From Pseudomonas alkylphenolica (lineage in GTDB: Bacteria; Pseudomonadota; Gammaproteobacteria; Pseudomonadales; Pseudomonadaceae): DNA of 64,000 nt. This document shows positions 41,456-58,337 of this stretch, in pieces. The notes below the pieces were generated by a model. That model had not been told where the DNA came from. It worked only from the letters and a program-made list of their open reading frames with translations, and did not search any database. The position numbers and the translations under genes were made by a program. Where the stretch lies: the NCBI RefSeq assembly GCF_000746525.1, contig NZ_CP009048.1, positions 4,281,501-4,345,500 on the forward strand, read 5' to 3'. Position 1 is the first letter of the stretch. Every line of letters begins with the position of its first letter.

Positions 41456-44400
41456 TCACTCCTCCTTCACGGCCTCTTCAATCACTTTTAGCAGTCGGTG
41501 GGAGCGAAGCTGTTCAGGGTCCCCCATCGAGTATTTGATCAACTCTTCATTCCCCAATGCATCCCGGTACGACGGAGAAAGTCGGTTCATCAACCCGGAG
41601 CAATCCTCCAGCAACGAAGATAGGCTCTCCTCGACAGAGTGAACAGCGAAAACCTTCATACGCAAGGCCAAGGAATAGATCCATAGATTGACCTGGTGGG
41701 CACGACTATAGCTGGTCCAACTGACCTGAGTGGCCAGTGGCACACGTATAATTCGTGCCGATTTGGCGAATACACGTTGCAACTCCGTTACCAACGGCTT
41801 TTGCTCCCCCTCCTCCAAAAACCCAAACAAAATGGCCAATTCATCAGTGAATGCTCCATCACTGATAAACCGAAAAGACAAATGATCTCCCTTCAACCCA
41901 GGCAGCCACTGAGCTGTTAGATCCCCTAACCACTGGGTGGCCACCTGCGCAGGTTTTATGACTCCTCGCTCCAGCATTGGGACGAGCAGCGCCTCCAAAA
42001 TCCAAGGTGTAATGTGATGCAGCCTACCTAAGCGTCCACGGACAGGATCAAGAATTTCCTTTAAATCCGTGTCCCGCAATGGCGTCTCAATCATCAATGT
42101 CAATCGCTCGACTAGCAAACTGAGGCTGTCTGACTCTTGGTAATTTGCCTCGTTGATCAACCAGCAAAGTATCTTGGTCCTGACATCGGTAGGAAAGACA
42201 TTGAGTTCGTCGAGAATATCCAGCCCAGATTTTCCCTCATCGAGCTCGGACTTGAGAATGTGCAACCCCATCCACTGCGTGATCGGACAGCTCTCCGACA
42301 ACAAAGCGCGGATGCATGCAGTTTTACTGCCGAGGTATGGATAACTGCAGATGTGACGGAGTGTCGTGGTGATCAACGCTCGCTGGCGTAACAGGCTCGC
42401 ATCCTCGGTCTTCTCGCCAATAGGCCAATTTTTGACTTGATCACGAAGCCATTTCGCCAGGACCGTTGGGCTTTTCAACCACAACAAGACGATAGCGTAG
42501 TAGTCCCCGTACTCTACTTCAGATGGAGCATAGGAAAAGGTACGCTCAGGATCATCACCTGTCTTCAGGTGTTCATGGAGACTCAGACTGAAGTAGTAAT
42601 CGAGGTCGATAAATCTCCTTGAGGCCCCTGATGGAAGCAAACTGTTTCTTCGATTAGGGTCAAGATGACGGAGCAGACTATGCTCCAATTCTGGCGTAAG
42701 TTGAGCACCCTCAAACCTATACAATTCACCAGCCGGCACAGAGGCGAGAAGCTCGCCCATTGCGTCCCACGCGTCGTGAAAAGGCTCCAGATCAAATCCC
42801 TTTTCCCAGAGTTTTTCCGGAACATTTTCAAATTTACTTTCGCAAATTTCCTCCCCCTCAATCAAACCCAGGCCGTTTGACACCTCGGCAAGATTAGCTC
42901 CAGAAAGCCCTCGCAACTCATCGAGTTCAAGCCACCAAGCAAACACATCTCCAGCGCGTGGCAGATCTAACAGCGAAGTACATTCAGTGTGTACCTGAAC
43001 CTCCTGCTTTGCTTGGGTTCGAGAATCGAAAAGCACTTTCTCAGCCATGTCCGTTTCTGGCTGAGAATGGAACGTGGCATCGATGATGTCGTCCATGTAG
43101 GTGAAAATAGCCGGAAGGATGTCCGACGGAATCGGCGTCACCAACAATGGGTGATTTTCGTTGGCCATCTGTATGGAGTTGGACACCTGATATCCGGCCA
43201 GCGGTATACCTTTCCGAGAACGGATCAGCACCATGCGGTCATGAAGCTTATTGGCTGGAAGTGCAATCACACGCAAATGCACGTTACCGAAAGAACTACT
43301 GCCCCATTCATTGCATTTCTGTAGCAGATTCTTTATCCGCTGTTGCTGGTCACTATCGCTCGATGACGCGACGCCATCCGCTTTGGCCTGCTTCTCAGAC
43401 GTGAACATCACATAGTCGCCCGCAAAGGTACCAATCCGATGCAGAAGGTCGATCCCAACATCTTCGATGAATGGGTCAAACCAAGCGATTTGGGCGTCGG
43501 GATGAGCCGAAAATGTCTCTCGTAGCCACGCTACCAATTGCAGCCGGCTCATTCCCTCACTGTCAGACAGCTTGGGAAAGAACCGTGCGGAGGACTTCTT
43601 TGGAAGCAGTAAAGCGAGCGACTCCGCAATACCACGATTTACATCGACCCACGGATCATCCTTGTGACCACCAATGACGGATCGCGAAGGCGTTGAGGAA
43701 CGTTGAATTGCCTTAGCGTCTTCAAGCTGACCTTTCGCTCGGGCGGGTACCTGCTTGGCCAACCAATCAGTTTTGCCCTCAATCCTCATTGATTGATGGA
43801 CCCGCATTTCCATATTCATAGTGCGGACGAAGAAATTTCCTGTCTGCAGACACAAGAACGCTTCCGAAGAATCCTCAGGTTGAGAAAACACTTCTAGAGT
43901 CACTGCCGTGGCAATCTGCTCCTTGAAGGTGTCAATGTGAAATCTGACCTCAAAAGGCAGAGCAACATCCTTTTCCACTGTGGCAATGTGAGTGGATTGC
44001 AGACAACCATCACTGAAAGATTTGAGCACCACAAGCAGCTTGCAGGGCACATTCGTGAATGGCTCAAGGATCTGTACCGACGCGAAATCACCTTTGGTCT
44101 TCAGGCGATACTTGGAGCGTTCTGACTCGTTCAGCGATGGGGCACAGAGAAACTCAAAGTCCCCCAAGCGCCAAGCATCCAGAACTGCGAAATCTAGACC
44201 TGTATCGGCATCCAACGCATCGCACACCGATCGGGCGATCGTTCCAGCGTTGTCAACTCCGAAGTCTAGAAATAATGACTCTTTACTAAGACGCGTGAGG
44301 GCGCCGCTGTCATAACTCCCGTAAGAGCTTGGGCTCAAGCGTTTGCTAACAAATCGATAGTAATCACGAGTCGGCAGATGCATGATCGGTCGGATGCATA

Positions 44401-44791
44401 CGTCCGAGCCAAACGCAGCGGCTCCAAGTACACCCGCCAGCTTGCTATCCACCTGAATGCCTGCTTGATCACTGGCTTCGAGCAACGACATACCTGCACT
44501 CAAACATTCACTGAAAAGCCTCAATGCTGTGGTTGAGATAAAAGCCGTGAACGGAAGAATTCGTAGAGAGGATTGCTCAGTTAAAACCATAGCTTTGCCA
44601 TTGATAGACCCAGTCCAGCGGCCCGCGCTGTAGTCAGCAGGCAGAGCCCGCCCATAGAGCCAACGAATGGACGTCTCCTGCTTGCTCTTGTACTCCAGCA
44701 ACCACACCTGCATAACGCAGGACTTTGCATCTTCGTTGAAAACTCCGAGAAGCCGCGGATCAGTTAACAGTTGCTCAAAAGCTGGATTCAT
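41456..44791 (-). CDS. Very large defence-island protein (VPA1262-like, PLD-like core)
   Basis: About 1,111 aa. Near residue 515 it has KLHDRMVLIRSRKGIPLAG followed by YQVSNSIQMANENHPLLVTP, a phospholipase-D-like phosphodiesterase motif with H-D-R and SNS. WFDPFIEDVGIDLLHRIG before it forms the preceding core strand and helix. The N-terminal third has no recognised domain; the last 450 residues are helical repeat-like. The whole resembles large island proteins named VPA1262 family. A longer frame begins with GTG at 44908; MNPAFEQ at 44791 is preferred because the extension looks unstructured, though no clear ribosome-binding site marks it. The biological role is unknown. Confidence 0.6.
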   Translation of the reverse strand: MNPAFEQLLTDPRLLGVFNEDAKSCVMQVWLLEYKSKQETSIRWLYGRALPADYSAGRWTGSINGKAMVLTEQSSLRILPFTAFISTTALRLFSECLSAGMSLLEASDQAGIQVDSKLAGVLGAAAFGSDVCIRPIMHLPTRDYYRFVSKRLSPSSYGSYDSGALTRLSKESLFLDFGVDNAGTIARSVCDALDADTGLDFAVLDAWRLGDFEFLCAPSLNESERSKYRLKTKGDFASVQILEPFTNVPCKLLVVLKSFSDGCLQSTHIATVEKDVALPFEVRFHIDTFKEQIATAVTLEVFSQPEDSSEAFLCLQTGNFFVRTMNMEMRVHQSMRIEGKTDWLAKQVPARAKGQLEDAKAIQRSSTPSRSVIGGHKDDPWVDVNRGIAESLALLLPKKSSARFFPKLSDSEGMSRLQLVAWLRETFSAHPDAQIAWFDPFIEDVGIDLLHRIGTFAGDYVMFTSEKQAKADGVASSSDSDQQQRIKNLLQKCNEWGSSSFGNVHLRVIALPANKLHDRMVLIRSRKGIPLAGYQVSNSIQMANENHPLLVTPIPSDILPAIFTYMDDIIDATFHSQPETDMAEKVLFDSRTQAKQEVQVHTECTSLLDLPRAGDVFAWWLELDELRGLSGANLAEVSNGLGLIEGEEICESKFENVPEKLWEKGFDLEPFHDAWDAMGELLASVPAGELYRFEGAQLTPELEHSLLRHLDPNRRNSLLPSGASRRFIDLDYYFSLSLHEHLKTGDDPERTFSYAPSEVEYGDYYAIVLLWLKSPTVLAKWLRDQVKNWPIGEKTEDASLLRQRALITTTLRHICSYPYLGSKTACIRALLSESCPITQWMGLHILKSELDEGKSGLDILDELNVFPTDVRTKILCWLINEANYQESDSLSLLVERLTLMIETPLRDTDLKEILDPVRGRLGRLHHITPWILEALLVPMLERGVIKPAQVATQWLGDLTAQWLPGLKGDHLSFRFISDGAFTDELAILFGFLEEGEQKPLVTELQRVFAKSARIIRVPLATQVSWTSYSRAHQVNLWIYSLALRMKVFAVHSVEESLSSLLEDCSGLMNRLSPSYRDALGNEELIKYSMGDPEQLRSHRLLKVIEEAVKEE

Positions 44792-45031
44792 ATGATCGCC
44801 ATGCCGGTGAATTAAAGATTTGTGGTAAGTCCAATGGTGCTGGGAGCAGAGAATTAAGGGGACGCTGCCAGTCTGATCCCAGACTTCCGCTGACAGACTT
44901 TTCCGCACTCGATTTGTTGCCCCTGAAGGCTCTTTTCATCGTAGGACTTCTAAAATGGCCAAGCCTCCAGGGGAAGGGAATCCGGAGCTAACGGTTGCTC
45001 TCTACGCGAAAAAGTTACCACATTTCGTATT

Positions 45032-45506: not shown

Positions 45507-45983
45507 ATGATCCAGTTGCAAGATTACTTTCGCAGCCGTGTTTCACAGGCAGCCTATGATCTGTTCGCGGTTTTTTCTCGCTTTGAATACGCGATGAAAA
45601 AAGGAGGTTTTCGGCGTGGTGAAAACGCTGATGCGGCATGGACCAAATTCGCTAACCATCTACCAGCGGATATTTTCCCCCGCTTGCGCGCGACATCCGA
45701 TGTGGCAATTTATTTCGACGCTCCACCGGATCGATTGGTGGCCGATACTGGTGAAGGCGTGCGATGGTCCGGCAAACCCACCACGCCGACTACAATGCCA
45801 GAACTGCTTGATTGCATAAAAATCGCTAGGAACAATCTGTTCCACGGTGATAAACGACATGACAACCGAAGGGACACTGAACTCATGGTTGCAGCTCTGT
45901 TCGTGCTCAACCATATTTATGAATCTATTGAGTACGATCCAAAATTTGACGCTTTCATCTCCGAAATGGAATATGGCCTTTGA
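45507..45983 (+). CDS. HEPN-like protein
   Basis: A 158-aa helical protein. Around residues 108-113 it has RNNLFHG, matching the HEPN RxxxxH active site, followed by the helix ELMVAALFVLNHIYESI. HEPN proteins are usually RNases in toxin-antitoxin and anti-phage systems. It stands alone, with no antitoxin beside it. An alternative reading is a non-catalytic HEPN scaffold. Family assignment is by motif only. Confidence 0.6.
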   Translation: MIQLQDYFRSRVSQAAYDLFAVFSRFEYAMKKGGFRRGENADAAWTKFANHLPADIFPRLRATSDVAIYFDAPPDRLVADTGEGVRWSGKPTTPTTMPELLDCIKIARNNLFHGDKRHDNRRDTELMVAALFVLNHIYESIEYDPKFDAFISEMEYGL

Positions 45984-46245
45984 TTCTTAAGCCGTTTCCT
46001 TCGACCTCAATCATCGGCACTTGTCGTTTTTTGTAATATTTGACGATGTATAATTAATCCAATTAATAAGGCTTCCGTAGTTTTCTTCATTGACCCTGCG
46101 TTGGTCTACGAGGAGGCCATCGCTGCCACTATAATGATCCGAGAGTGGCATTCATTTGGCCACGAGCGGTCGCTGCTAAAGTTGCTACCTGCAGCCATTG
46201 CAGCAATCCTATCACTTGACCACGCTAAACAACTAGGAATGGAAT

Positions 46246-46935
46246 ATGGCATTAGCTGAAGATCTGAAAAAATGGGTAGACGAAACCTTCACAGCTGTTT
46301 GGGAGGTTCAAGAGACGGCTGGAGTTCCTAACCCCGAAGATCTGCGCCTAAACTCAAACCACGCAAAAGATTTGAATTCAGCGACCGTGCTATATGCGGA
46401 TCTGGACGGGTCTACAGATATGGTGAACATGAAGAAATGGGAGTTCAGCACCGAAATCTATAAAACCTTCCTCAAATGTGCTTCCGACATCATTAAAAAC
46501 GAAGGTGGGGTCATCACCGCGTACGATGGGGATCGCGTTATGGGAATCTTCACCGGTGATTACAAAAACACCTCCGCAGCACGCTGCGCTTTGAAGATAA
46601 ACTTTGCTGTGCAAGATATTATTCAACCCGCAATCTCAAAGGGATGGACTACAGATTTTGTCTTAAAGCATGTTGTAGGCATCGACACCAGTCAATTGAA
46701 AACAGCACGAATTGGGGTGCGAGGTGATAACGACTTAGTTTGGGTGGGCCGTGCAGCAAATTACGCCGCAAAACTTACAAATCTGGCTAACAAACCAACC
46801 CGCATTACCGAGGACGTCTATAAAAGGTTGGCATCAGACTTGAAACAAACCAACGGTACAGACATGTGGGTTCGCGAATATTGGGAGGGGATGGGAATTT
46901 GGATGTACTCCTCCACCTGGAAATGGCGGGTGTAA
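46246..46935 (+). CDS. Class III nucleotide cyclase, single domain (PycC-like)
   Basis: A 229-aa cyclase. The two metal aspartates are in YADLDGSTDMV and AYDGDRVMGIF. The transition-state residues lie in VGRAANYAAKLTNL (Asn and a Lys where Arg is usual). One domain suffices to form a homodimer. Size and the ADLDGST form resemble Pycsar uridylate/cytidylate cyclases that make a cyclic nucleotide on phage infection. A cyclic-nucleotide-binding TIR protein lies 362 bp downstream. The nucleotide made cannot be told from sequence. Confidence 0.8.
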   Translation: MALAEDLKKWVDETFTAVWEVQETAGVPNPEDLRLNSNHAKDLNSATVLYADLDGSTDMVNMKKWEFSTEIYKTFLKCASDIIKNEGGVITAYDGDRVMGIFTGDYKNTSAARCALKINFAVQDIIQPAISKGWTTDFVLKHVVGIDTSQLKTARIGVRGDNDLVWVGRAANYAAKLTNLANKPTRITEDVYKRLASDLKQTNGTDMWVREYWEGMGIWMYSSTWKWRV

Positions 46936-47297
46936 ATTTATAACCACGCCTGGAGGGCAGGAGCAAGCCATTGAACGCAATAACAGCCACGTAAACCCGG
47001 GCCTTTATCGGCCGCGATGGGCATTGGCGTTACCGTCATTAACCTGAACGCCCAACCTTCGCGGCACCTAGCGCGCATTGCGGCCAAGGCCCAGGAATGT
47101 ACGCAAGAAAATTTCTGAGCTGAAGAAAGCCCCCGCCCCTTCACAGACGGCACATTCGACAATGTCCCGCGGCAAAAAAGGTTATAGCCCCACCACCCGC
47201 ACCTCGACTGCATTTTTCTTTTTTGGATCCCATTGAATTTTTTCGGCACATCCCCATTTGCTTGAGAGACCCTTTACCCCCGCGGGGCTGTCGATAA
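46936..47297. other. Intergenic stretch with no clear gene
   Basis: 362 bp of moderately GC-rich DNA between the cyclase and the TIR effector. A short open stretch on the plus strand (around 47015-47118, MGIGVTVINLNAQPS) has no start signal or known match. It probably contains the effector's promoter and debris of a lost gene. Confidence 0.4.
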
Positions 47298-48218
47298 ATG
47301 TCTACAGAAAAAATGATTGAACGATTTGAAGGTGTTGCGGGCCGGCCAGCCCTTGAAGAGGTTTTGCTAGAGCAGAAATTGGTTCTCGGCAATGAAACGC
47401 TGGCCAAACGTCTGGCGCAGGCTGGCTCCTTGATTGAGCTAGAGCAAGATCAGGTTCTCATTGAGCAGGGAGGGCAGGATACCGACGTTTTTTTTATCAT
47501 CACGGGGCAACTCAAAATCAAAGTTCACGACCGGGAAGTGGCAATCCGTGGACAAGGAGAGCACGTCGGGGAAATGTCTGCATTGGTGGTGACGGCGAAA
47601 CGTTCAGCGACCGTTGTCGCTACAGAATCTTCGGTCGTATTGAAGGTATCGGCTGTCGACTTTAAAGCGGCAGCAAACGATTTCCCCCGCATTTGGCAAT
47701 ACGTCACCCGTGAACTAGTTGAACGGCTGCATCAACGCAACGCTTTGGTGCGACCTTCCCACAAATCAGCCCGAGTGTTCATCATCTCTTCCAAAGAGGC
47801 GTTGCCGATTGCACGCGAGATCGAACGTCAGCTCGAGCATGACACGTTCTTTGTCAAAATCTGGACCGAAGGTACGTTTCGCGCGTCGAAGTACACCATT
47901 GAAAGTCTGGAGGAACAGCTGGACGAAAGCGATTTTGCTATCGCAATCGCCCAGCCCGACGACGAAGTGGCAAGCCGTGGCCAATCGCAAGGCGCACCAC
48001 GTGACAATGTGATTTTTGAACTCGGCATGTTCGTCGGCCGTCTTGGCAGAATGCGGTCGATTCTCCTAGAGCCCAGGGGCGATGAAGTTCGCCTTCCTTC
48101 AGACCTGAAAGGTCTCACAACCATCACCTACCGCCCGCCCTCAGACAAAGAACAAGCAAAGCTGGGGCCCGCCTGCACCTCGCTGCGGGAAATTTTCAAC
48201 GAACTAGGCCCGCGATAA
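47298..48218 (+). CDS. Cyclic-nucleotide-binding TIR-like effector (PycTIR-like)
   Basis: A 306-aa protein in two parts. Residues ~30-140 form a CRP-type cyclic-nucleotide-binding domain (FFIITGQLKIKV, phosphate cassette VGEMSALVVTAKRSATV). Residues ~155-300 form a TIR-like nucleotide-binding domain of the PF10137 kind (RVFIISSKEALPIAREIERQ opening, then RDNVIFELGMFVGRLGR). This is the domain order of Pycsar TIR effectors, which destroy NAD+ when the cyclic nucleotide binds. It lies between two cyclase genes. Confidence 0.85.
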   Translation: MSTEKMIERFEGVAGRPALEEVLLEQKLVLGNETLAKRLAQAGSLIELEQDQVLIEQGGQDTDVFFIITGQLKIKVHDREVAIRGQGEHVGEMSALVVTAKRSATVVATESSVVLKVSAVDFKAAANDFPRIWQYVTRELVERLHQRNALVRPSHKSARVFIISSKEALPIAREIERQLEHDTFFVKIWTEGTFRASKYTIESLEEQLDESDFAIAIAQPDDEVASRGQSQGAPRDNVIFELGMFVGRLGRMRSILLEPRGDEVRLPSDLKGLTTITYRPPSDKEQAKLGPACTSLREIFNELGPR

Positions 48219-48240
48219 TTCGAATTATCTTCAGCAAACC

Positions 48241-48265
48241 ATAACCTTGCTAAATGAAAGGTTAT
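48241..48265 (+). other. Stem-loop between effector and tandem cyclase
   Basis: Perfect 8-bp inverted repeat ATAACCTT/AAGGTTAT with a 9-nt loop, 23 bp after the effector stop and 25 bp before the tandem-cyclase start. No T-run. It may be an RNA-processing or regulatory hairpin that sets effector and cyclase levels. Confidence 0.5.
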
Positions 48266-48289
48266 GCGTCCTCAGTAAAGGAGAGTTCA

Positions 48290-49840
48290 GTGAGTAAGAG
48301 TTGGAGCCACAACCGCGCAGTCGAACATATCGATAAGAAAATTGCTGATGTGAAAGACATCACCGTCAAAGACTACGTCCGCGACATGTCCTTGGAGTCG
48401 ATTCCAACGAGCGTTGCCTACCGGGTCGATGGTGTTCACATGTACGCCGATATCCAGAATCTGCACGATATGCTCAACATTACGCATGTCGAGGGTACTG
48501 ATTGCCATAAGCGCACGCTACGATTCCTTGATCAACACTACCGTGCAGTCAAGCGCATTCTCGATAGGGTCGACGCTCGGCGGGTGGACTTCCACAGCCA
48601 ACGGTTACATTCGTTGTTCACCAAACCTTACAACAGCGATACCGACGCCGAACTGAAGCGCGTGCAAAGGGCGGTCGCGACGGCCAAGCTCATGATCGAT
48701 GTGCTTGCCCAGACGGGTGACGATGATGAGCAAATTCCCGCCGCGAAGCTGCGAATCGGCATTGATACCGGCCTCGCCCTGGCGGTTAATAACGGCCGCA
48801 AGGGGAATCGTGAACCGCTATTCCTAGGCGACCCAGCTAATCACGCAGCTAAACTGGCCAGCAACAGCAGCGCCAAGGGCATCTACCTCACCAATGCTGC
48901 CCGTATGGCAATTGGCTTGCCTGAGAAAGACGCGCCCGAAAAAGCTGCCTTGACGAATGAAGAAATCAAGGACTGCCAAAACGCCGCTAAATTGGACGTC
49001 ACTGCCGACGAAATCGTCGAGGAATGGCGCGAGGACCTGAAGAACAATCCCATTGGCGGCTACCAGTTTACCCGCCAGACACCGCCACTGTGCGACATGG
49101 ACATCAGCAAGCTGACACCCGCCAACTCCAAACGCCAAGAGATGGTAAGCCTTTATGCCGATATCGACGGCTTCACGTCCTATGTCGCGGAACATATCGA
49201 CGACAACGCCGAGGACGTCGTCCGTACGCTGCATGTAATACGCGCAGAACTCGAACGCGTAGTTACGTCTGACTTTCAGGGTCGGCGAGTCCGCTTCATT
49301 GGTGACTGCGTGCAGGCGCTGTCCTGTGATGGTACTGCCCACACCACGGACGAACAAACAACGATCTCCGAATCAACCCGGTTAGCCGGCGCGCTACGCA
49401 GCAGTTTCAACCTGGCAATCGAGCGTTTGAACGCAAAGGATTATGAAACGGGTGAACTGGGTCTCGCGATAGGCTTTGATATTGGCCCCATTTCGGTAAC
49501 CCGCCTGGGCAAGCAAGGAGACCGCGTTCGCTGCGCGATCGGACGTAAAGTGATCGAATCCGAAAATCGCCAGTTTGCTTGTACAGGTGTCGAGACTGCG
49601 ATTGGGCAAGCGGCTTATGACGCTGCGACTGACGCCGTGAAAGATCTGTTTGGCAAGACTCGCAAGATTGCTAACCTGGATTATAACGAGGCCACTGAGG
49701 CGTTGGCCGACAAGGGTGATGAGTCAGCCAAACAGGCACGTACGGAAGCGTATGCTGGTGCTCCGGCCATCATTCTCGTGGACAACCGTGAAGTCCGTCC
49801 TTACGCGATCACCACTACCGGCGAGTCAGGTAACTCTTGA
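48290..49840 (+). CDS. Tandem class III nucleotide cyclase with complementary half sites
   Basis: A 516-aa protein with GTG start behind AAAGGAG. Two cyclase domains lie at about residues 35-205 and 280-490. The first keeps one Asp (YADIQN) and the NHAAKLA transition-state motif, but the second metal Asp is lost (VDFHSQRLHS). The second keeps both metal Asps (YADIDGFT, RFIGDCVQ) but lacks the Asn/Arg motif (VRCAIGRKVIES). Together they can form one composite site, as in animal adenylyl cyclases but in reverse order. It follows the TIR effector and overlaps the E2-like gene. Confidence 0.8.
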   Translation: MSKSWSHNRAVEHIDKKIADVKDITVKDYVRDMSLESIPTSVAYRVDGVHMYADIQNLHDMLNITHVEGTDCHKRTLRFLDQHYRAVKRILDRVDARRVDFHSQRLHSLFTKPYNSDTDAELKRVQRAVATAKLMIDVLAQTGDDDEQIPAAKLRIGIDTGLALAVNNGRKGNREPLFLGDPANHAAKLASNSSAKGIYLTNAARMAIGLPEKDAPEKAALTNEEIKDCQNAAKLDVTADEIVEEWREDLKNNPIGGYQFTRQTPPLCDMDISKLTPANSKRQEMVSLYADIDGFTSYVAEHIDDNAEDVVRTLHVIRAELERVVTSDFQGRRVRFIGDCVQALSCDGTAHTTDEQTTISESTRLAGALRSSFNLAIERLNAKDYETGELGLAIGFDIGPISVTRLGKQGDRVRCAIGRKVIESENRQFACTGVETAIGQAAYDAATDAVKDLFGKTRKIANLDYNEATEALADKGDESAKQARTEAYAGAPAIILVDNREVRPYAITTTGESGNS

Positions 49841-50616
49841 TCACCGCATTTAATCTGATTACACAGTTCGCCCCCGATTTCGGGGGCGCTTGCACAGTTG
49901 ATTCGGACTCTTCTGCTATTTTGGAATTGCCGATCCAGCTGGTTGACGGCAGGGTTTTACAGTACAGATTGCGCCTGCGACGGAGCGATGAATCGGTTTA
50001 CGTTCAAGAGGAACAGCCCACTCACCTGCCGTCCTTTTGCCCTGAACGGCACATCAATTATGACGGTACTTTCTGTCTGTATTACCCAGCGGCCAGCCGC
50101 TTGGCCGTGACTGACGAAGTATCTGCTGTGGCTTGGCTTGAAACACTCTACAGATACCTCAAGCTTCAAGAACGAGCCCGGGTTCAGCGTAAATGGCCCA
50201 ACAACGAGGTCTGGGCCCATGGGAACGCCGCCCATCACCAAATTCGCGCGTCGACCGCTGCTACAGGCTTAAATGGTGAATTTTCGGCGGCGCTTGAACA
50301 GAATCAGATTGCACTGCAACGTCGACGATCGAAAGGTCGCGCGATCCTGGAAATCTGGGTTCGCGGCGTTCACGCCTATAGCGTGTGGGAGTCTTACAGA
50401 CGAGTAATCAATCTGAAGCAGCGCTGCTTTTGCGGGGCCTCTGGGCTTAGGCGTCCGAAGACATTACGTCGGTGTGGACTTCACGCCAAACAAGCCGTTG
50501 AATTGGCCTTTGCGCTACGTGACTGGCAGAGCGAAGAGGATCGTTATTGGCAAAGCATGCAGGATCGGAGCTGCTGTGGCTCCTGCGATAACTGCCCTCT
50601 TTCACCATCACCTTGA
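49837..50616 (+). CDS. E2-like (ubiquitin-conjugating-fold) cysteine-rich protein
   Basis: A 259-aa protein with TTG start, overlapping the tandem-cyclase stop by four bases. The N-terminal ~95 residues look like an E2: beta strand ILELPIQLVDGRVLQYRLRL, then PSFCPERHINYDGTFCLYY. H72/N74 and C80 there mimic the HPN-to-Cys spacing of E2 enzymes. The C-terminal 60 residues are cysteine-rich (RCFCGAS, CGLH, SCCGSCDNCP), probably zinc-binding. No E1-like gene is nearby. E2-only partners are known in short type II CBASS; pairing with a class III cyclase suggests analogous priming. Confidence 0.7.
   Translation: MITAFNLITQFAPDFGGACTVDSDSSAILELPIQLVDGRVLQYRLRLRRSDESVYVQEEQPTHLPSFCPERHINYDGTFCLYYPAASRLAVTDEVSAVAWLETLYRYLKLQERARVQRKWPNNEVWAHGNAAHHQIRASTAATGLNGEFSAALEQNQIALQRRRSKGRAILEIWVRGVHAYSVWESYRRVINLKQRCFCGASGLRRPKTLRRCGLHAKQAVELAFALRDWQSEEDRYWQSMQDRSCCGSCDNCPLSPSP
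49869..49888 (+). other. GC-rich hairpin in the 5' coding end of the E2-like gene
   Basis: CGCCCCCG/CGGGGGCG with an ATTT loop, 32 bases after the TTG start. It could reduce translation or elongation of this gene relative to the cyclase. Confidence 0.45.
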
Positions 50617-50865
50617 CTAAGTGCTGAAGAACCGCGAGGCCGGGTATCCCCAGAAATCGCATAACGGTGTTTTGGAGAGGTGCTGATTGGGACCATGAGC
50701 GTCCTTCCCCGCAGGGTAACAAACGTATGACTATATAGATGAAAGGTACAACGTTAAATCGCACTCCGCCTGAGCCGATTTGCCTTTCCAACCCTAGGAA
50801 TGGCAATGTGCCAATGTCACGACTAAGCGCGATCCCTGCACGAGTCAATACCCCAAGGAGCAACT

Positions 50866-51429
50866 ATGGCATACCGAAATGGTAACTATTGCGCGTTCTA
50901 TGTGGCTGAACCCTTTCACGAAAGTTCACTAGCTGCCCATGCTACCAAGGACTTCGTTTACTACAACATGCTGCGAGCTTGGAAGGCCAAAGACCCATCC
51001 TTTCCTTTCATTGACTCCCACGCGAAAACTTATAGCGTGAGGGACGGCAGTGATTGGGAAAGTACGTTAAAACCAAGATTGCGCGAACGCCTGCAGTCCT
51101 CAAAGAATATTGTATTGTTTTTAAGCAGCGTCACTATTAGTTCAGTTGCCCTGAATGAGGAAATTGAATACGGGATCGAAAACCAAGGACTTCCCGTCAT
51201 TGTTATTTACCCAGAATTCAAAACAAAAGGATCCTTATTGCTGAATGGCGCCTTGTCTGAGGATGTTAAAAAATTGTGGAGCAGGCTTCCGACTTTTAAA
51301 AGACTGATGTCCAAGGTGCCGACCTTGCATATACCGCTCAACCAAGAAACCATAGTAACCGCACTAATCAACTCAGATTTTTCACTTACGTCAAAGACCA
51401 AACCGGATGTCTACCGCTATTCCGCATAA
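50866..51429 (+). CDS. thsB: Thoeris TIR sensor (ThsB-like)
   Basis: A 187-aa TIR protein. Family features are CAFYVAEPF, DSHAKTYSVRDG, SSKNIVLFLSS and the catalytic-Glu helix ALNEEIEYGI. ThsB proteins detect phage and convert NAD+ into a cyclic or histidine-linked ADP-ribose signal. It is followed 3 bp later by a membrane macro-domain protein, the partner typical of type II Thoeris. Codons are more AT-rich than in the cyclase genes, suggesting separate acquisition. Confidence 0.85.
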   Translation: MAYRNGNYCAFYVAEPFHESSLAAHATKDFVYYNMLRAWKAKDPSFPFIDSHAKTYSVRDGSDWESTLKPRLRERLQSSKNIVLFLSSVTISSVALNEEIEYGIENQGLPVIVIYPEFKTKGSLLLNGALSEDVKKLWSRLPTFKRLMSKVPTLHIPLNQETIVTALINSDFSLTSKTKPDVYRYSA

Positions 51430-51432
51430 TCA

Positions 51433-52299
51433 ATGACACACGAAAACAACAAGGAGAACAGCTTGCGCAAGGTTAGTTTTTTTGACAGTCAGTTAATGAA
51501 AAACTTTAAGGAACGGATTTCCACCACCAGCACCGTATTGTCCCTCGCATTGATTTTTGTGGAAATCCCTGCGCAGATGAAGGCGTTGGCTGGCGCTATT
51601 TTTATCGGACTTCTAATTGTAGTTTACGTCTGGTTGTGGCATAGAGCAAATCAGCTAAAAAGCGTTGATTTAGACATTGATGGCAGCAAAGTCACGGTGA
51701 AGGCAGGCGACTTATTTTTGGAGCCAGGATTAAAAGTCATTGCATTCAACGAGTACTTCGACACGGTCGTCGACGATCGAATCATATCTGCGCACTCATT
51801 AAATGGGGTATTTATTAATTTACACTTGCCCAGCACGCTTACCAAACTCGATCACCACCTAGAAACATATCCCTTTGACCCTGACGAACTGGGTGAATTA
51901 AACACTGCCAGACGTGCAGGAAAACTGCAAAAATATAAAATCGGCACACTATGTGTCTACGATGATTTTATACTTACAGCATTCTCAAAGTTTGACAATC
52001 AAAATCGGGCAATGCTGACCATGCCCGAGTACCTGGAGTTCTTGATCAACTTTTGGGATAAAATCAATAAAGTGTACGCTCAACAAAGCGTATCCACACC
52101 AATTTTCGGCTCAGGCATTACGCGAATCAAGGAACACAAAAACATCAGTGATGAAGACCTGCTCAAGATTATGTTGTGGACATTTCGGATCAGCGAAATG
52201 CGATTTAAGTACCCCGCCAAACTGACGATTGTGATCCACCAAGACAAAATCAAGACCATCAACCTTCTGGACATAAAATCGGCGAAAAACGGTTTATAA
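51433..52299 (+). CDS. thsA: Membrane macro-domain effector of type II Thoeris (ThsA-like)
   Basis: A 288-aa protein with two N-terminal membrane helices (about residues 33-47 and 52-70: ALAGAIFIGLLIVVYVWLW) and a soluble macro domain of the ThsA_Macro/DUF6430 type. FNEYFDTVVDDRIISAHSLN begins that domain. In type II Thoeris the macro domain binds the ThsB signal and the helices disrupt the membrane. No SIR2 domain is present, unlike type I ThsA. Confidence 0.85.
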   Translation: MTHENNKENSLRKVSFFDSQLMKNFKERISTTSTVLSLALIFVEIPAQMKALAGAIFIGLLIVVYVWLWHRANQLKSVDLDIDGSKVTVKAGDLFLEPGLKVIAFNEYFDTVVDDRIISAHSLNGVFINLHLPSTLTKLDHHLETYPFDPDELGELNTARRAGKLQKYKIGTLCVYDDFILTAFSKFDNQNRAMLTMPEYLEFLINFWDKINKVYAQQSVSTPIFGSGITRIKEHKNISDEDLLKIMLWTFRISEMRFKYPAKLTIVIHQDKIKTINLLDIKSAKNGL

Positions 52300-52534: not shown

Positions 52535-53785
52535 TCAGGAACCTTTAATTTTACTCCTTAAATCATCTAACTCTGCCTGCAGCCGAAAATTTTCCTCACT
52601 GAGTTTTTTTATGAGTTCATTCTTTTCCTGATACCGCTTATTCACGAGCATTTGTTGGGTGAGAGCAACATACGGCTTTATTGAGTCGGAGTTACGTTGT
52701 CCCAGATCCATTGCTACAGATGCAGAAACTGAAGCGTCCGAAGTGTCCAACCTCAGTTCTGCGCGTTGCTCAAAGTTTGTTTGAATCCTGTGCTCAGCAA
52801 ACTTTCGCCTGAAGGCATGTATTGAAGTTCTAGATTTAGTGCTGCCAATCGCTTTGAACGCTTTACCGAATATATCAGATACACTTGCATCGTTCAGTGG
52901 ACGTCCGGTGCGCACTGACAAAAAAACCCTATCTTGTGTCACTGCCTCATTGAATCCTTTCGCCTCGAGCATGCATTTACGTACAGTGGTAATAAATTCA
53001 CTAATTCTATAAGCGAGTAAAATAGGGAAGCGATAGTTAAGATTTGCGTCGAACTTCTGACTGTCCGGATTTACTATAATATAGTCATCAAGATTTTTTC
53101 TCAGCTCTTCTTGAGAAAATTGTGAGCAACGGAGAGAGTTTATGGACCCTCTTCGAAAGCCAACAGTACTGGCGATAGCCATGATAAGACTATTGCGCTC
53201 TGAAATATATTCATCTCTTTCTTTGCGAAAGTAATCTTCGAGCTTACTAACGTCTAATTCGGTAGCTGTATACTCAGTAACATGCTTACTAGACCTACCG
53301 ATTCGCCTGTAATTCAAAGGGTACATACGGTAATTATCATCTAACGATTTATTCTTCTTGGACTTCAAAGTAAAATCCGAAGTTATTGCGCACTCATGCG
53401 CCCCAATCAAACCACAAAGCTTATGACGATTTTGGTACCAGTGATAAAAACAATAAATTATGGCGAGCCTACTATTAACGACTCTCTTAAGCTTTTTTTC
53501 CAAAACTGAGCTTTTTGCCTTAAGCCTGTTTAAATCTGCATTTCTGAAGTTTCTTAACGTACTATTTGTGGCGCCTGCTATTGAAATCCTCTCGGACTCT
53601 ATGAAATTAAAATAAAGCACTAGATGATACATTTCATTTTTTACATACGAAAATGACCAACAATCATGCCGCTGTAAATGGATTGCGTAATCCATCAGGT
53701 CGTCGACAATCAGGAGATTCTCCTGATCAAAAGGAATTGGAATTTTAAGATCTGTCTCGCCAATCCATCTAATTTGAATTGGCAT
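52535..53785 (-). CDS. Tyrosine recombinase 3 of the GInt operon
   Basis: A 416-aa integrase. The catalytic region has the first Arg in ASTVGFRRGSINSLRC, HAFRRKF (His-x-x-Arg) and a C-terminal Tyr in SDSIKPYVALTQQ. The second His/Trp position appears to be Gln (LGQRN). The last ~30 residues are coiled coil (QEKNELIKKLSEENFRLQAE). It is the last gene of the operon and overlaps its upstream neighbour by 17 bp. Confidence 0.85.
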   Translation of the reverse strand: MPIQIRWIGETDLKIPIPFDQENLLIVDDLMDYAIHLQRHDCWSFSYVKNEMYHLVLYFNFIESERISIAGATNSTLRNFRNADLNRLKAKSSVLEKKLKRVVNSRLAIIYCFYHWYQNRHKLCGLIGAHECAITSDFTLKSKKNKSLDDNYRMYPLNYRRIGRSSKHVTEYTATELDVSKLEDYFRKERDEYISERNSLIMAIASTVGFRRGSINSLRCSQFSQEELRKNLDDYIIVNPDSQKFDANLNYRFPILLAYRISEFITTVRKCMLEAKGFNEAVTQDRVFLSVRTGRPLNDASVSDIFGKAFKAIGSTKSRTSIHAFRRKFAEHRIQTNFEQRAELRLDTSDASVSASVAMDLGQRNSDSIKPYVALTQQMLVNKRYQEKNELIKKLSEENFRLQAELDDLRSKIKGS

Positions 53786-54260
53786 CTCTTAACTTCCTCT
53801 TCAACTCTGCGATCGCAGAATTTAAACTATTAACCTTATCTTCGAGCAACTCATTAACTCGAACAAGCTCAAGTTTTTGGCTCGCTGTATATGACTCAAG
53901 TACACTGATATATTTTTTAAGTCTTCCAATCTCCTCCTTAAATTTGCCTATCTTGTCTGTACGATTGCTCGAAGAATTTTTAGTGCGGACTAGCATTGAC
54001 GCGTGGAGGGAAGCGACCACTTCACTCTTTAGCTCTGGATACTTGTTGAGGGTGTCGTTTGCATTACGAGTTATTGGGGGAGTATTTTCTCTGAACCTAA
54101 CGGTATTCTGTGAGAGATCCCAGTTATTAAATTGTCGCAATGTTTTTGGATAATACTCATCAGTTGGGAGATCAGAATTACTAAACATTTCCTTGAGCAG
54201 AGAAATCTTTAGCCGAACATTTCGAATTGCTTCGCTTCTATTTCGTTCCGAAATTTTCAT
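53769..54260 (-). CDS. Small coiled-coil protein of the GInt operon
   Basis: A 163-aa protein. The N-terminal half has a short helical region (SEAIRNVRLKISLLKEMF). The C-terminal ~65 residues form a long coiled coil (EEIGRLKKYISVLESYTASQ, then ELLEDKVNSLNSAIAELKRK). No catalytic residues. It occupies the position of the small helix-loop-helix protein that GInts need for integration and excision. Its ATG overlaps the upstream stop (ATGA). Confidence 0.8.
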   Translation of the reverse strand: MKISERNRSEAIRNVRLKISLLKEMFSNSDLPTDEYYPKTLRQFNNWDLSQNTVRFRENTPPITRNANDTLNKYPELKSEVVASLHASMLVRTKNSSSNRTDKIGKFKEEIGRLKKYISVLESYTASQKLELVRVNELLEDKVNSLNSAIAELKRKLRDANSN

Positions 54261-56449
54261 GTGAATTTACCAAGATACAACTTATGATATAGCAATGTAC
54301 TCTCTAACCCCTCAATCTCATACTCCATATTTATCCTTGCAATAGAGGTCTCAGGCATTTTGACAGCTTCCAATCTCATACTAGCAAGATCTAACTCCAT
54401 ACCATAGACGTGCTCTTCAGAAGTCCAAGAAAACAGACAGCCTCGACAAAGTTTCGGAGATGCATTTTCCTTATGTAGCTTATTATCAATTTGTTGCCAG
54501 CACTTTGATTTCGATTTGACGCGATTAGCACCAGCTAAACACTGTGCATGTTTAAATGGTTGCGGAGCATGCCCTCTATTCTTGAGTCGTTCAACCAGCT
54601 TTTCAATATTATCTAGATCTAGCTTAGCATACTCAACAGATGAGAACATTTTCTTATAAAGAGCCCGCGTAAGTTTGGTGTATCCGCCCGACGTATTTTC
54701 ACACGAAATACTCCGATATATGATTTCGCTAAATTTCTCCCTGGTAGCGTCCGCCATACTCATCATTATCTCATCATTGTGTATAACATGAGCTTCGGAC
54801 TGTACTGATAAGTCCCAATCGTACAACTTACTAACCTCTGCCGACTCTGCCTGTGCTTGAGGGTTAGACACATATATTTGCGTGGTAGCAATATCCTCGT
54901 GCTGAAGTTGATACGATAAAAAAGGCAGCATAAAATATTCGTATCTATTGATGAAGATTTTACAATATAGCCTTCGAAACATGTGTGGAGTAAGCCTCAT
55001 CGGCTTGCCGATCGCAGAATGTATAAAATTGCCCGACATCATTGGATCGCCACATTCAAAGTCAAACTGAGAATACTTACTTATTAAACCATTAGAGTTA
55101 AATTGCTTGTACCGAAACAATGTTAAATCACGATCTACCAGCATTGAATAGTTATGTTTTTCGAAGGGTTTACCCACGAATATTAACTGTAGCTTCTCTA
55201 AAGTGGTAATTGCTACCTTTGTGGCCGAAGCAATAAAAAAACCCACATAGTCTTTCACCGTTTTCTCTACATAGAACTGCTGAAGAAATATTCCCGCTCT
55301 ATCATTTACCACAACTCCGCTACCCAGTGAAAGGCCGTATTTTTTATGAGTAAGCTCGCGCTTTCTTCTCGCATTAAGTATTGCAATCACGATGAAGCAC
55401 GCGTTTAAAATATCTTTAATGGCTGAGTTTAAAAAACTGATCACGCTTTTAATATTCGCCGACCCAATTGAATCAGAATTGACAAGCCCGACTCGGCGTG
55501 CAAAACGCATCACCCTTGAAAAGTTTTTTCGCACATCGCCAGGCGTCGTTAGTTGCTTTGCCGCGAAAGCTAAGAGACGTAGCGTACGATTGCTTTTAGT
55601 GTTGATGTATTCTAGAGAGTACTCCAACAGCATACCTGCGTCATAGCTGTTAATATCTGCAGTCGTACCCGGATTTTCTGTTAGCTTTTTTGCTAACTTA
55701 ACATAGTTCTCAAACGGGACAATTTTAGTTCTATATGCATCAGTAGAGTGATAAAGAAAATTAATTGACTCGAGAGTCTGACGCAATAGGCTATATTTCA
55801 TCCCGCTTGGAGTCTTATCATTCGCTCGAAAAACAGTTAGCCAACCCTTTGTTACTTGAAACTTCCTTACCCTATTAAAGTAAACAGCCACTTCATTTCC
55901 GCTAAGATTTGTAGAAATAGCAGATTGAAATCCGGTAGTACTCAGACTTACTTTTGAGTTTGTGGACGTGAATATTTGCTGAGAGGGATCTACAGCTGTA
56001 TCTAAAAATTCGGTCAGCCGGAAATCTATATTCAGGGCTTCATGCCAGCCACTTCCGGCTAGGATTCTAGCCAATTTGAGCGTAAAAGGACCGGAAATTT
56101 TGCCTAGGTCGAATATGTTATTAAGCCAGCAATATTCAAAAAACTTAATTATGGTGGAGAGAATGAAGCATATGCGATTGCATTTGGAATTACTGGGTGC
56201 ATTCGAGGCAGCAAAATAGTCTAACGAATATATCAATGCGACAAGGTAATGCGAATACTCAACAAGCCTGGACGGTGTTTCATACACATCATTAGCAGGC
56301 AGCCAATATCTTTTAAGATCTATCGGCCTCGCTTTTCTTTCATCTGATCGCGCATCATGCTCTTTCACATACAACACAAAATTTGAATCAAGAAACAAAT
56401 CCGCTGAAATGGGATTGCCGTTAATAATTTCAAATATGTCTTGACTCAT
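54257..56449 (-). CDS. Tyrosine recombinase 2 of the GInt operon (730 aa)
   Basis: A large recombinase. Catalytic parts: Arg in AILNARRKRELTHKKYG, HMFRRLYCKIF and LQHEDIATTQIYVSNP with the His and nucleophile Tyr. The C-terminus contains several Cys (CRGCLFSW), possibly a zinc finger for DNA binding. The start MSQDIFE at 56449 has GAGG nine bases upstream and overlaps the end of recombinase 1. Very AT-rich. Confidence 0.85.
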   Translation of the reverse strand: MSQDIFEIINGNPISADLFLDSNFVLYVKEHDARSDERKARPIDLKRYWLPANDVYETPSRLVEYSHYLVALIYSLDYFAASNAPSNSKCNRICFILSTIIKFFEYCWLNNIFDLGKISGPFTLKLARILAGSGWHEALNIDFRLTEFLDTAVDPSQQIFTSTNSKVSLSTTGFQSAISTNLSGNEVAVYFNRVRKFQVTKGWLTVFRANDKTPSGMKYSLLRQTLESINFLYHSTDAYRTKIVPFENYVKLAKKLTENPGTTADINSYDAGMLLEYSLEYINTKSNRTLRLLAFAAKQLTTPGDVRKNFSRVMRFARRVGLVNSDSIGSANIKSVISFLNSAIKDILNACFIVIAILNARRKRELTHKKYGLSLGSGVVVNDRAGIFLQQFYVEKTVKDYVGFFIASATKVAITTLEKLQLIFVGKPFEKHNYSMLVDRDLTLFRYKQFNSNGLISKYSQFDFECGDPMMSGNFIHSAIGKPMRLTPHMFRRLYCKIFINRYEYFMLPFLSYQLQHEDIATTQIYVSNPQAQAESAEVSKLYDWDLSVQSEAHVIHNDEIMMSMADATREKFSEIIYRSISCENTSGGYTKLTRALYKKMFSSVEYAKLDLDNIEKLVERLKNRGHAPQPFKHAQCLAGANRVKSKSKCWQQIDNKLHKENASPKLCRGCLFSWTSEEHVYGMELDLASMRLEAVKMPETSIARINMEYEIEGLESTLLYHKLYLGKFT

Positions 56450-58337
56450 GGATTGCGTCCTCAACATCTAACAATGCGCTTTCAATTTTATTTAATACAT
56501 ATCCAAACCTAGAATTTTTCACGTAATTGTACAGTGCATCATTGAATGCAATCTTTGGGGCAACAACTATATTGAAGCGCTCTTGATTTTCGCTACGTAA
56601 TCGCTGCCAGTTTTTAAAGTAATACTCTCTCGTCCTGATGATGCTTAAAATTTCCTCTTCAGTAATTATGATTCTTCTTTGAGGACAGCCGTCTTTTTTA
56701 TGGCAGTTTTCAGCTGAGCAAATCAAATCCGCCCCCCTATCACCATAAAGCCCCGTGTAGGGATCAACACACAACGAACCATCCCCGATACTCTTCCATT
56801 GATTTATATTGCTTTTCCTTGAGGCCATATTGAAGACAACCTTATTCTGGAGATCCACTTGAAATTGCAGATTGATCGAGGATGAAATATTTCTTGTTAT
56901 AAATTGATCAAGATATCTGCCAGTGGTTCCGAGGCTGCTATGCCCGCCTCGCCGCCTAGCGGTCTCGAAGCTCTTCGACTTATAAGCATCAAGGCATAAT
57001 ACAGTTCTACGAATGTGGCTTAGTGAAAAGTTAAACAAATCATTTCGCTGAATGAACCCTTTTGGCGTCATTTGAATAGTTGTAGACTGCCTGTCAGAAA
57101 GTTTGTAGCCGTTAGTCCATGAGCTCCAGATCCTCCTACTACCAAATGGTAGCAATTTAAATAAATGCAGCTGATCAAAATTCCAGACCAGCAATTCTAT
57201 TGCATAAATAACATCGTTTTCAGTTTTTTCTATGAAAATAACAGGAGTATCATCATCTGTTTTTCCTTTGAAACCTTGCAATGTGTACGCAAAGCCTTCC
57301 TTATTGCTTATTACCCCATCTCTGTCCATAGCGACGAGCGCATCTTGGTTCCATCCAGTCCTGCATAGCAACAATATAAAAATTGCCTGCAACTCGATAG
57401 TTGTCAGGCGTTCTGGAGAAAAAAAAGACTGACGAGGACTATATCCCTTACGAACCACCACGCCTATCTCTAAACAGTTGTTCTCCAGCCCATGTAGTTT
57501 AAAAGTACCGTTCCTAACCATTGACTGATCATGCTGAAGCACCCCCTTTCTAAAAACCGCTAAAATATTTTCTGCAGAGTTCCTACCTAATATTTTACTT
57601 GTGCCAGAGGAAGGAAGCTTGAATAGCGTACTCATAATCTCTGCCTCTTGAACGCTTGTTAGACCATTACATTCGAGACCTTTTATTTTAAGTCGGTTTT
57701 GTTTAGAGAAAAACAGTTCTTGGTTACATGCCTCGACAATCTTTAATAAGTCCACCTGTAAGATACTTGCCGACTTTTCGATTAAGTCAAGGTAGTTTTT
57801 GTGAGGCACTGCGCCTAGTGGAGAGTCGCTTTCCAAGATTTTTAAATGATCCTCCATGTTTAATATTGGTTGGAGTTTATTTTGACCCCCCCCTAAACCA
57901 GACCTGTATTTTACCGAGTCTACGGTGATCTCCTCAGCGGCGAGGAAATTGGTGTTGAGTACGGCCTGCCTGAACTTTCCAGAGATCTGTCGCATGGTCT
58001 CGGATGTATGATCAGTTTCGCGGAGTCGATTTTCCAGAATACTGAATAATGCATGCATTTTTTTCGGCGTTAGATTTTGCTCGCGAATTCGACAAATTTC
58101 CCAACCTTGGGGATCTAGCTTCAAACAAACAATTGCCGTTTTGATGAAATAAATCACATTAACCCTGATGCGATGTTCTAACGATGAATCAGATAATTTC
58201 CGCAAGACCGAAGTCAACCATGACTCGTCCCATAGTTCGAGTTCATCGAGATCGAAAAACCTTTCACTGTGATAAACATGGTGGTAACTCGTGTACTGAA
58301 CAAAAATTTTTAGAATTCGACCATTTTGTGCATACAA
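56430..58337 (-). CDS. Tyrosine recombinase 1 of the GInt operon (635 aa)
   Basis: First gene of the operon, starting 71 bp inside the right end. Catalytic residues: Arg in LLLCRTGWNQDALVAMD, HIRRTVL (His-x-x-Arg), GGHSS and TGRYLDQF (Tyr). A C-terminal Cys/His group (ICSAENCHKKDGCPQRR) resembles a zinc-binding module. The long N-terminal region is helical. Three such proteins are needed together in GInts. Confidence 0.87.
   Translation of the reverse strand: MYAQNGRILKIFVQYTSYHHVYHSERFFDLDELELWDESWLTSVLRKLSDSSLEHRIRVNVIYFIKTAIVCLKLDPQGWEICRIREQNLTPKKMHALFSILENRLRETDHTSETMRQISGKFRQAVLNTNFLAAEEITVDSVKYRSGLGGGQNKLQPILNMEDHLKILESDSPLGAVPHKNYLDLIEKSASILQVDLLKIVEACNQELFFSKQNRLKIKGLECNGLTSVQEAEIMSTLFKLPSSGTSKILGRNSAENILAVFRKGVLQHDQSMVRNGTFKLHGLENNCLEIGVVVRKGYSPRQSFFSPERLTTIELQAIFILLLCRTGWNQDALVAMDRDGVISNKEGFAYTLQGFKGKTDDDTPVIFIEKTENDVIYAIELLVWNFDQLHLFKLLPFGSRRIWSSWTNGYKLSDRQSTTIQMTPKGFIQRNDLFNFSLSHIRRTVLCLDAYKSKSFETARRRGGHSSLGTTGRYLDQFITRNISSSINLQFQVDLQNKVVFNMASRKSNINQWKSIGDGSLCVDPYTGLYGDRGADLICSAENCHKKDGCPQRRIIITEEEILSIIRTREYYFKNWQRLRSENQERFNIVVAPKIAFNDALYNYVKNSRFGYVLNKIESALLDVEDAIHESRHI

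Follow-up and report, generated by a model that had tools for sequence, protein, structure and literature searches.

The closest described systems are type II CBASS and Pycsar. A messenger synthase with a lone E2 makes up the short type II CBASS CdnG-E2 of Serratia marcescens, which is said to work without an E1 in the 2024 report of Yan and colleagues. The long accessory set comprises Cap2 and Cap3. According to PMC10097602 and PMC11153139, Cap2 conjugates CD-NTases via a C-terminal Gly or Ala. Among 1,583 CD-NTases with Cap2 and Cap3 the last residue is highly conserved as Gly or Ala, and a Gly-to-Ser exchange at the cyclase end abolished conjugation in an E. coli CBASS (both PMC10097602); conjugation of the B. 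cereus CBASS cyclase takes place through its C-terminal KPGGFA (PMC11153139). For the Pycsar cyclases, PMC11224242 uses the names clade A (PaPycC, 6YII) and clade B (BcPycC, 7R65). The terms 'ubiquitin', 'E2-like' and 'E2 domain' are absent from the main text of that article, and PMC10419184, as far as its text was available, mentions Pycsar only in its reference list. A literature search on Pycsar with E2, E1, JAB or conjugation yielded no linking text among the matches listed, mainly titles and abstract openings.

The window is a stretch of 64,000 nucleotides from Pseudomonas alkylphenolica (NZ_CP009048.1, positions 4,281,501 to 4,345,500), whose genome is a single contig of 5.76 Mb. The plus strand carries, in this order, a single-domain PycC, a PycTIR effector, a tandem PycC, an E2 protein and the Thoeris pair ThsB and ThsA:

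46246..46935, + strand: single-domain PycC, 229 aa, clade B, a BcPycC relative (PADLOC PycC, 332 bits; 7r65, 417.7 bits)
47298..48218, + strand: PycTIR effector, 306 aa, cyclic-nucleotide-binding domain and TIR (Pfam cNMP_binding, 6e-14, and CAP12-PCTIR_TIR, 1.6e-36; the solved PycTIR 8jsj, 186.6 bits)
48290..49840, + strand: tandem PycC, clade A, 516 aa from GTG (6yii, 923 bits; PADLOC PycC, 759 bits)
49796..49807, + strand: C-terminal tail motif R-P-Y-A of this cyclase, codons CGT CCT TAC GCG (read from the sequence; motif class in 74 of 80 non-redundant E2-linked and 0 of 9 E1-E2-linked tails)
49837..50616, + strand: E2-ntca/E2-Crich protein, 259 aa, TTG start, H72-I-N74 ... C80 (Pfam; PADLOC E2 PDLC00868, 342 bits; alignments; AlphaFold model and structure comparison)
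50866-51429, + strand: ThsB, TIR-like (PADLOC, 240 bits)
51433-52299, + strand: ThsA, macro domain and hydrophobic N-terminal part (PADLOC, 409 bits)

Both cyclases are class III pyrimidine cyclases of the PycC type by their PADLOC, 6yii and 7r65 matches, and the PycTIR gene at 47298-48218 is an adjacent effector. The tandem cyclase and effector belong to the same families as those of the clade A Pycsar system (PaPycC 6YII with PycTIR; 923 bits). A single gene run, 46246-50616, thereby holds two cyclases of different clades and one visible effector. The tandem cyclase starts at GTG 48290 (516 aa, the length of many listed relatives) or at ATG 48254 (528 aa) and stops with TGA at 49838-49840. 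The overlap of this stop with the start of the E2 gene, mentioned in the initial annotation, was seen as TTGA, with the TTG start at 49837. In the cyclase alignments (numbered from ATG 48254) D303 and D351 of domain 2 and N196 of domain 1 are invariant and K200 of domain 1 is nearly so. We take the two aspartates to be metal ligands and assign active-site roles to N196 and K200 from general knowledge of class III cyclases; the two domains may form one composite active site. In the single-domain PycC, Y50, D94 and R97 stand at the positions numbered for UTP recognition in BcPycC in PMC11224242, and this gene (46246-46935) probably encodes a uridylate cyclase.

The Thoeris pair (50866-52299) lies directly 3' of the cyclase/E2 pair. 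Upstream of the first cyclase a protein of 158 aa (45507-45983) was not matched in Pfam, PADLOC or NCBIfam at the limits used, and on the minus strand a VPA1262-family protein of 1150 aa (41456-44908; NCBIfam, 837 bits; no PADLOC match) adjoins the defence genes. A minus-strand gene run at 52535-58337, with weak integrase and recombinase matches below cut-off at 54257-56467, might represent a set of recombinases marking the edge of the island. A search for tRNAs in the window found none.

An E2-like N-terminus with H72-x-N74 and C80 and a cysteine-rich C-terminus had been read from the sequence of the 259-aa protein, and both readings held. Residues 17-122 match Pfam E2-ntca (PF20298; 9.2e-35, 119.8 bits at a cut-off of 27.5) and residues 127-255 match E2-Crich (PF20272; 1.4e-39), the protein being above both cut-offs. 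H72, N74, C80 and C197 are invariant in an alignment of 85 rows, and C199, H216, C246, C247 and C253 are nearly so; in a set of 26 rows with more distant plasmid relatives N74 is nearly, not fully, invariant. The spacing from His to Cys is 8, compared to 10 in eukaryotic E2s. Thus the sequence domain and the catalytic Cys and HxN of an E2 are both present. The AlphaFold model was judged to have the UBC fold, and its structure comparison gave VIA scores of 8.2 and 7.5, which are middling by the tool's own warning. The second-best structural match was the Serratia marcescens CdnG-E2 (8YJY). Foldseek with the E2 model found nothing in the PDB at E <= 0.001, and the best 50 matches listed included no E2; the PDB searched by sequence gave no match to the window E2. 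A profile comparison with Cap2-like E2 domains was not significant (probability 0.7%), though both active sites lined up.

Past the E2 domain the model has an additional Cys-rich part with helices and strands. Of the 88 relatives listed, 87 have this Cys-rich domain of about 130 residues together with the E2 domain. On an Acinetobacter plasmid (L070 4993-5750) the annotation has two overlapping genes, one for the E2 and one for the Cys-rich domain; unless the split is a frameshift, it suggests an independent Cys-rich domain. Public records name relatives of the family 'E2 domain-associated cysteine-rich protein' or 'E2 domain-containing protein'; the short Pfam descriptions of E2-ntca, E2-Crich and E2-E1mid (PF20273) give no function. 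The 'ntca' presumably stands for nucleotide-cyclase-associated, and our guess for the source of the name is Burroughs and Aravind 2020.

The likeness to E2-only CBASS drawn in the initial annotation gained support from the gene content, a messenger synthase with a lone E2, and from the structural match to 8YJY. As in type II CBASS, an E2 or E1-E2 adjoins the synthase. Unlike in Serratia CdnG-E2, the synthase of the window is a class III cyclase and not a CD-NTase, its E2 continues into the helical, stranded, Cys-rich part, and the cyclase bears the tail motif [RKQ][PAS][HY]. No CD-NTase was present among the seven window genes at 45507-52299 in Pfam and PADLOC scans.

Adjacency of the two genes was surveyed from both sides. 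Searching the 84,980 species genomes of the genome_contigs collection with the E2 alignment yielded 60 loci, hereafter E2-first loci, spread over Alpha-, Beta- and Gammaproteobacteria with one Myxococcota record. A tandem PycC profile match lay directly upstream on the same strand in 59 of them, including one locus with only a C-terminal cyclase piece at the contig edge (L018); the sole exception, L067, is a degraded E2 fragment. PycTIR-like effectors were near 42 loci, PycTM-like effectors near 12, and neither near 17, some loci being short. A single-domain PycC was near the pair in 11 of the 60, and for this reason the two cyclases may work together. Because a single pattern taken from this E2 family underlay the E2-first scan, the cyclase-first direction was examined as well. 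Tandem PycCs were rare, with 5 of 398 genomes of the family, 3 of 369 of the class, 8 of 395 and 3 of 233 of two other families and 4 of 398 of the phylum, in samples that overlap and of which three include the window's own genome. Besides the latter, 16 genomes had a tandem PycC: 12 with an E2, and four with an E1-E2 followed by a JAB gene (G1047, G1072, G1226, G1279). Among the 12, the cyclase of G1143 is split over two contigs, and G181, G198, G229 and G231 hold near-copies of one element. On plasmids 28 records matched the cyclase, and the 24 examined comprised 20 with E2, three with E1-E2 (L068, L069, L071) and one (L073) truncated by the start of its record. These 28 include every one of the 21 plasmid records that matched the E2. 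For two plasmid records whose cyclase is called uridylate cyclase, the gene table, known to be incomplete, has no entry at the E2 position. In viral contigs none of three candidate stretches for the E2 was confirmed, and the cyclase profile gave one locus from 60 stretches, L094, which ends just past the cyclase. Phage records and E. coli genomes had no match. The neighbourhood survey proposed in the initial annotation thus found stably adjacent genes, and in the samples examined tandem PycCs usually have the E2 as partner, so that it is no oddity of the window locus. Neither outcome named there as refuting, a predicted structure unlike an E2 or homologues seldom side by side, was observed. 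A local accident as origin of the pair was ruled out by its recurrence in both surveys.

Some relatives of the window cyclase have another partner. PADLOC recognised an E1-E2 by model PDLC00855 in L068 (608 bits) and L069 (598 bits) and by PDLC00836 in L071 (658 bits), and the best solved match of the L069 protein was Cap2, over the E1 part. By these matches the long type II CBASS accessory set stands in relatives where the window has a lone E2. The L068 protein matches E2-E1mid (PF20273) only below cut-off. A JAB gene follows the E1-E2 in L068 and L069 and is present in eight of nine E1-E2-linked sets. The combination of E1-E2 and JAB, as in type II CBASS with Cap2 and Cap3, occurs in L068, L069, L114, L115, L120, L121, L052 and L053, with a pyrimidine cyclase in place of the CD-NTase. 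An Agrobacterium plasmid (L071 2282-3385) has, ahead of the tandem PycC and E1-E2, a fusion of a cyclase with a cyclic-nucleotide-binding domain. A tree was built from 87 cyclase cores with the tails removed. The E1-E2 label (8 rows) has to change three times on it, and the same number is demanded by the well-supported branches. The main E1-E2-linked group is placed among E2-linked rows, and L071 stands apart, beside L051; this second replacement event is less sure because both are long branches. From this tree, long and short forms apparently replaced each other at least two times, and each time the cyclase tail differs.

The tails were compared in 103 rows, merged to 91 by identical last 60 residues: 80 E2-linked, nine E1-E2-linked and two without partner (L094 and the first piece of L072). 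L116 and L073, whose cyclases run off the locus, were left out. An insertion sequence interrupts the L072 cyclase; the second piece, which lies ahead of the E2 gene, is counted among the 80. The motif [RKQ][PAS][HY] was found in the last 22 residues of 74 of the 80 E2-linked tails, the window included, and in none of the nine E1-E2-linked tails; this count is descriptive, as the pattern was read off these same sequences, and related tails are not independent. The six exceptions have EPY (1), TPY (2) or RPF (3). A 'relaxed' pattern matches 80 of 80; it was widened once the exceptions had been seen and is not used as evidence. Conversely, eight of nine E1-E2-linked cyclases and none of the 80 E2-linked ones end G[FY][SAG]. 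The remaining E1-E2-linked one, L071, has the end GGTRHA, which fits neither type. Within the last 12 residues the motif was found in 73 of the 80, compared to 0 of 23 single-domain PycCs from the same loci; within the last 22 residues 4 of these 23 have it. The single-domain PycC of the window lacks the motif. Shuffling of the tails in an earlier set of 78 E2-linked cyclases, without the window and L032, gave a mean of 8.2 and a maximum of 19 tails with the motif, and in an earlier, nearly identical set 85 of 1531 internal stretches of equal length had it. The commonest place is four residues from the end (35 of 74), and ten tails have two copies. The following residue varies (A, S, C, T, V, F and others), hence no single acyl-donor residue is evident.

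The window cyclase has RPY followed by 11 residues, the farthest from the end of all 74, and ends TTGESGNS. The missing terminal Gly or Ala had been correctly remarked upon in the initial annotation; the last residue is Ser. It might be held to disprove conjugation, an argument we rejected on the tail counts: the absence is no counter-evidence, since a different motif is common to E2-linked cyclases and it is the E1-E2-linked relatives that end in Gly-Phe-Ser/Ala. Protein searches were also made without gene context. Of the 120 best window-like cyclases 102 carried [RKQ][PAS][HYF] within the final 22 residues, and a single one (P0168) ended GFS; among the best 120 L069-like cyclases 113 ended G[FY][SAG] (68 GFS, 43 GFA) and none had the motif. 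The last residue among 120 close relatives of the window cyclase was Ala in 10 and Gly in 9. The G-F-[SA] tail of the E1-E2/JAB relatives is close to KPGGFA of the B. cereus CBASS cyclase, with Ser as the commonest end (68 GFS, 43 GFA in the best 120 L069 homologues) where CBASS has Gly or Ala. L006, a cyclase of domain 2 only with an E2, still ends RSHASSL. Two Bradyrhizobium-type loci (L052 1-8528, L053 104-8708) have a tandem PycC, E1-E2 and JAB (tail GGFA) beside a tandem PycC and E2 (tail RSH); the first cyclase of L052 is cut by the locus start, and every cyclase bears the tail that fits its own partner. A by-product of ribosome binding at the gene overlap was considered for the motif and ruled out by several of seven junctions with an apparently non-overlapping E2 start, the starts being judged from the profile match. 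We propose that R-P-Y-A is a recognition or processing site of the E2. By analogy to CBASS, a tail that differs with the partner type suggests control of the cyclase by ubiquitin-like chemistry.

We favour, with a probability of about 0.65, a Pycsar anti-phage module in which a dedicated E2 controls the clade A tandem pyrimidine cyclase via tail conjugation priming. Computation provided the E2 domain and fold, the conserved active site, the near-constant adjacency in the samples, the E1-E2 replacement and the tail difference. The E2 would recognise the short motif [RKQ]-[PAS]-[HY]-small on a presumably flexible C-terminal tail of the cyclase. The processed or native C-terminus would be taken as thioester on C80 and passed, without an E1, to a lysine, which may belong to the E2, to the cyclase or to some other protein. 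This conjugation would prime the cyclase, an activating direction of control that we infer together with the signal, and the cyclic pyrimidine then made would fire the neighbouring PycTIR NADase, or the membrane protein PycTM in some relatives. The cyclase is named as the conjugated protein by analogy, because CBASS has the same gene set and the same kind of tail. E1 independence is suggested by the Serratia CdnG-E2 work cited above and by the absence of an E1-E2 from the scanned window genes and from 58 of 60 E2-first loci.

The position of the motif off the extreme C-terminus and the variable last residue would also suit an E2 that only docks on the tail and modifies an effector, phage or host protein, or that carries a ubiquitin-like protein charged by an E1 elsewhere. 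Three ThiF-family genes above cut-off in the genome, one of them beside a JAB gene elsewhere on the chromosome, could supply such an E1. This explanation is unlikely: an E1-E2 like that of the relatives occurs in only two of the 60 E2-first loci (L052 and L053, which have both modules), and Pfam recognised no ubiquitin-like domain in the window genes at 45507-52299, those genes alone being scanned. Moreover, with an E1-E2 partner it is the cyclase that has a conjugation tail of the CBASS type, an indication that the cyclase is what becomes conjugated. An E2 that is catalytically idle and caps the tail, keeping the cyclase inactive (or stable) until infection in the manner of an antitoxin or sensor subunit, appears less probable again. 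The Cys-rich domain in 87 of 88 listed relatives may bind zinc or a ligand, and the two domains read as separate genes in L070. However, C80, H72 and N74 are invariant in 85 rows, which is unexpected for a dead enzyme, and the swap for an E1-E2-JAB set implies chemistry.

It would be far more surprising if the tail motif belonged to the structure of the cyclase itself or merely resulted from the gene overlap, with the adjacency as mere co-inheritance in defence islands. The motif is indeed conserved together with the preceding stretch in the main clade, but over the whole set the linkers before it differ in length and sequence, ten tails have it doubled, and it is kept where the E2 start, as placed by the profile match, seems not to overlap the stop. 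E1-E2-linked cyclases, whose core is of the same kind, lack it, and the three changes of the E1-E2 label on the tail-free tree stand against this explanation as well.

Elsewhere in the same genome (L129 3243-6441; G000:C1 about 2515242-2518440), the minus strand carries a ThiF protein of 541 aa with an N-terminus that looks E2-like by eye, a JAB gene and a membrane protein that, judged by a motif, looks SAVED-like. Among the listed ORFs of at least 150 aa in L129 1-9500 no cyclase or CD-NTase was recognised by eye. These genes are a possible orphan conjugation set.

The gene pair itself is not claimed as a discovery. The initial annotation had considered it a possible new arrangement; the pair recurs widely, and Pfam families, a PADLOC E2 model and public protein names exist for the E2. 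We consider it probable that ubiquitin-like conjugation is a portable control of messenger synthases and not a peculiarity of CBASS, and that clade A class III cyclases, with a fold unrelated to CD-NTases, carry a long and a short form of it. The long form would have an E1-E2, usually with JAB, and a cyclase tail ...KPxGF[SA] or similar, the short form an E2 with Cys-rich domain and a tail ...[RK][PAS][HY]x. The E2-only form would then be an E1-independent conjugation or processing with its own C-terminal signal. The match of tail and partner makes the two-gene pair testable by a point change and a tail change. If this is true, tail conjugation would be a general way to license immune messenger synthesis, extending the CBASS device to an unrelated cyclase fold. 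It could explain how clade A Pycsar systems stay off, and work on isolated clade A cyclases may have lacked the regulator.
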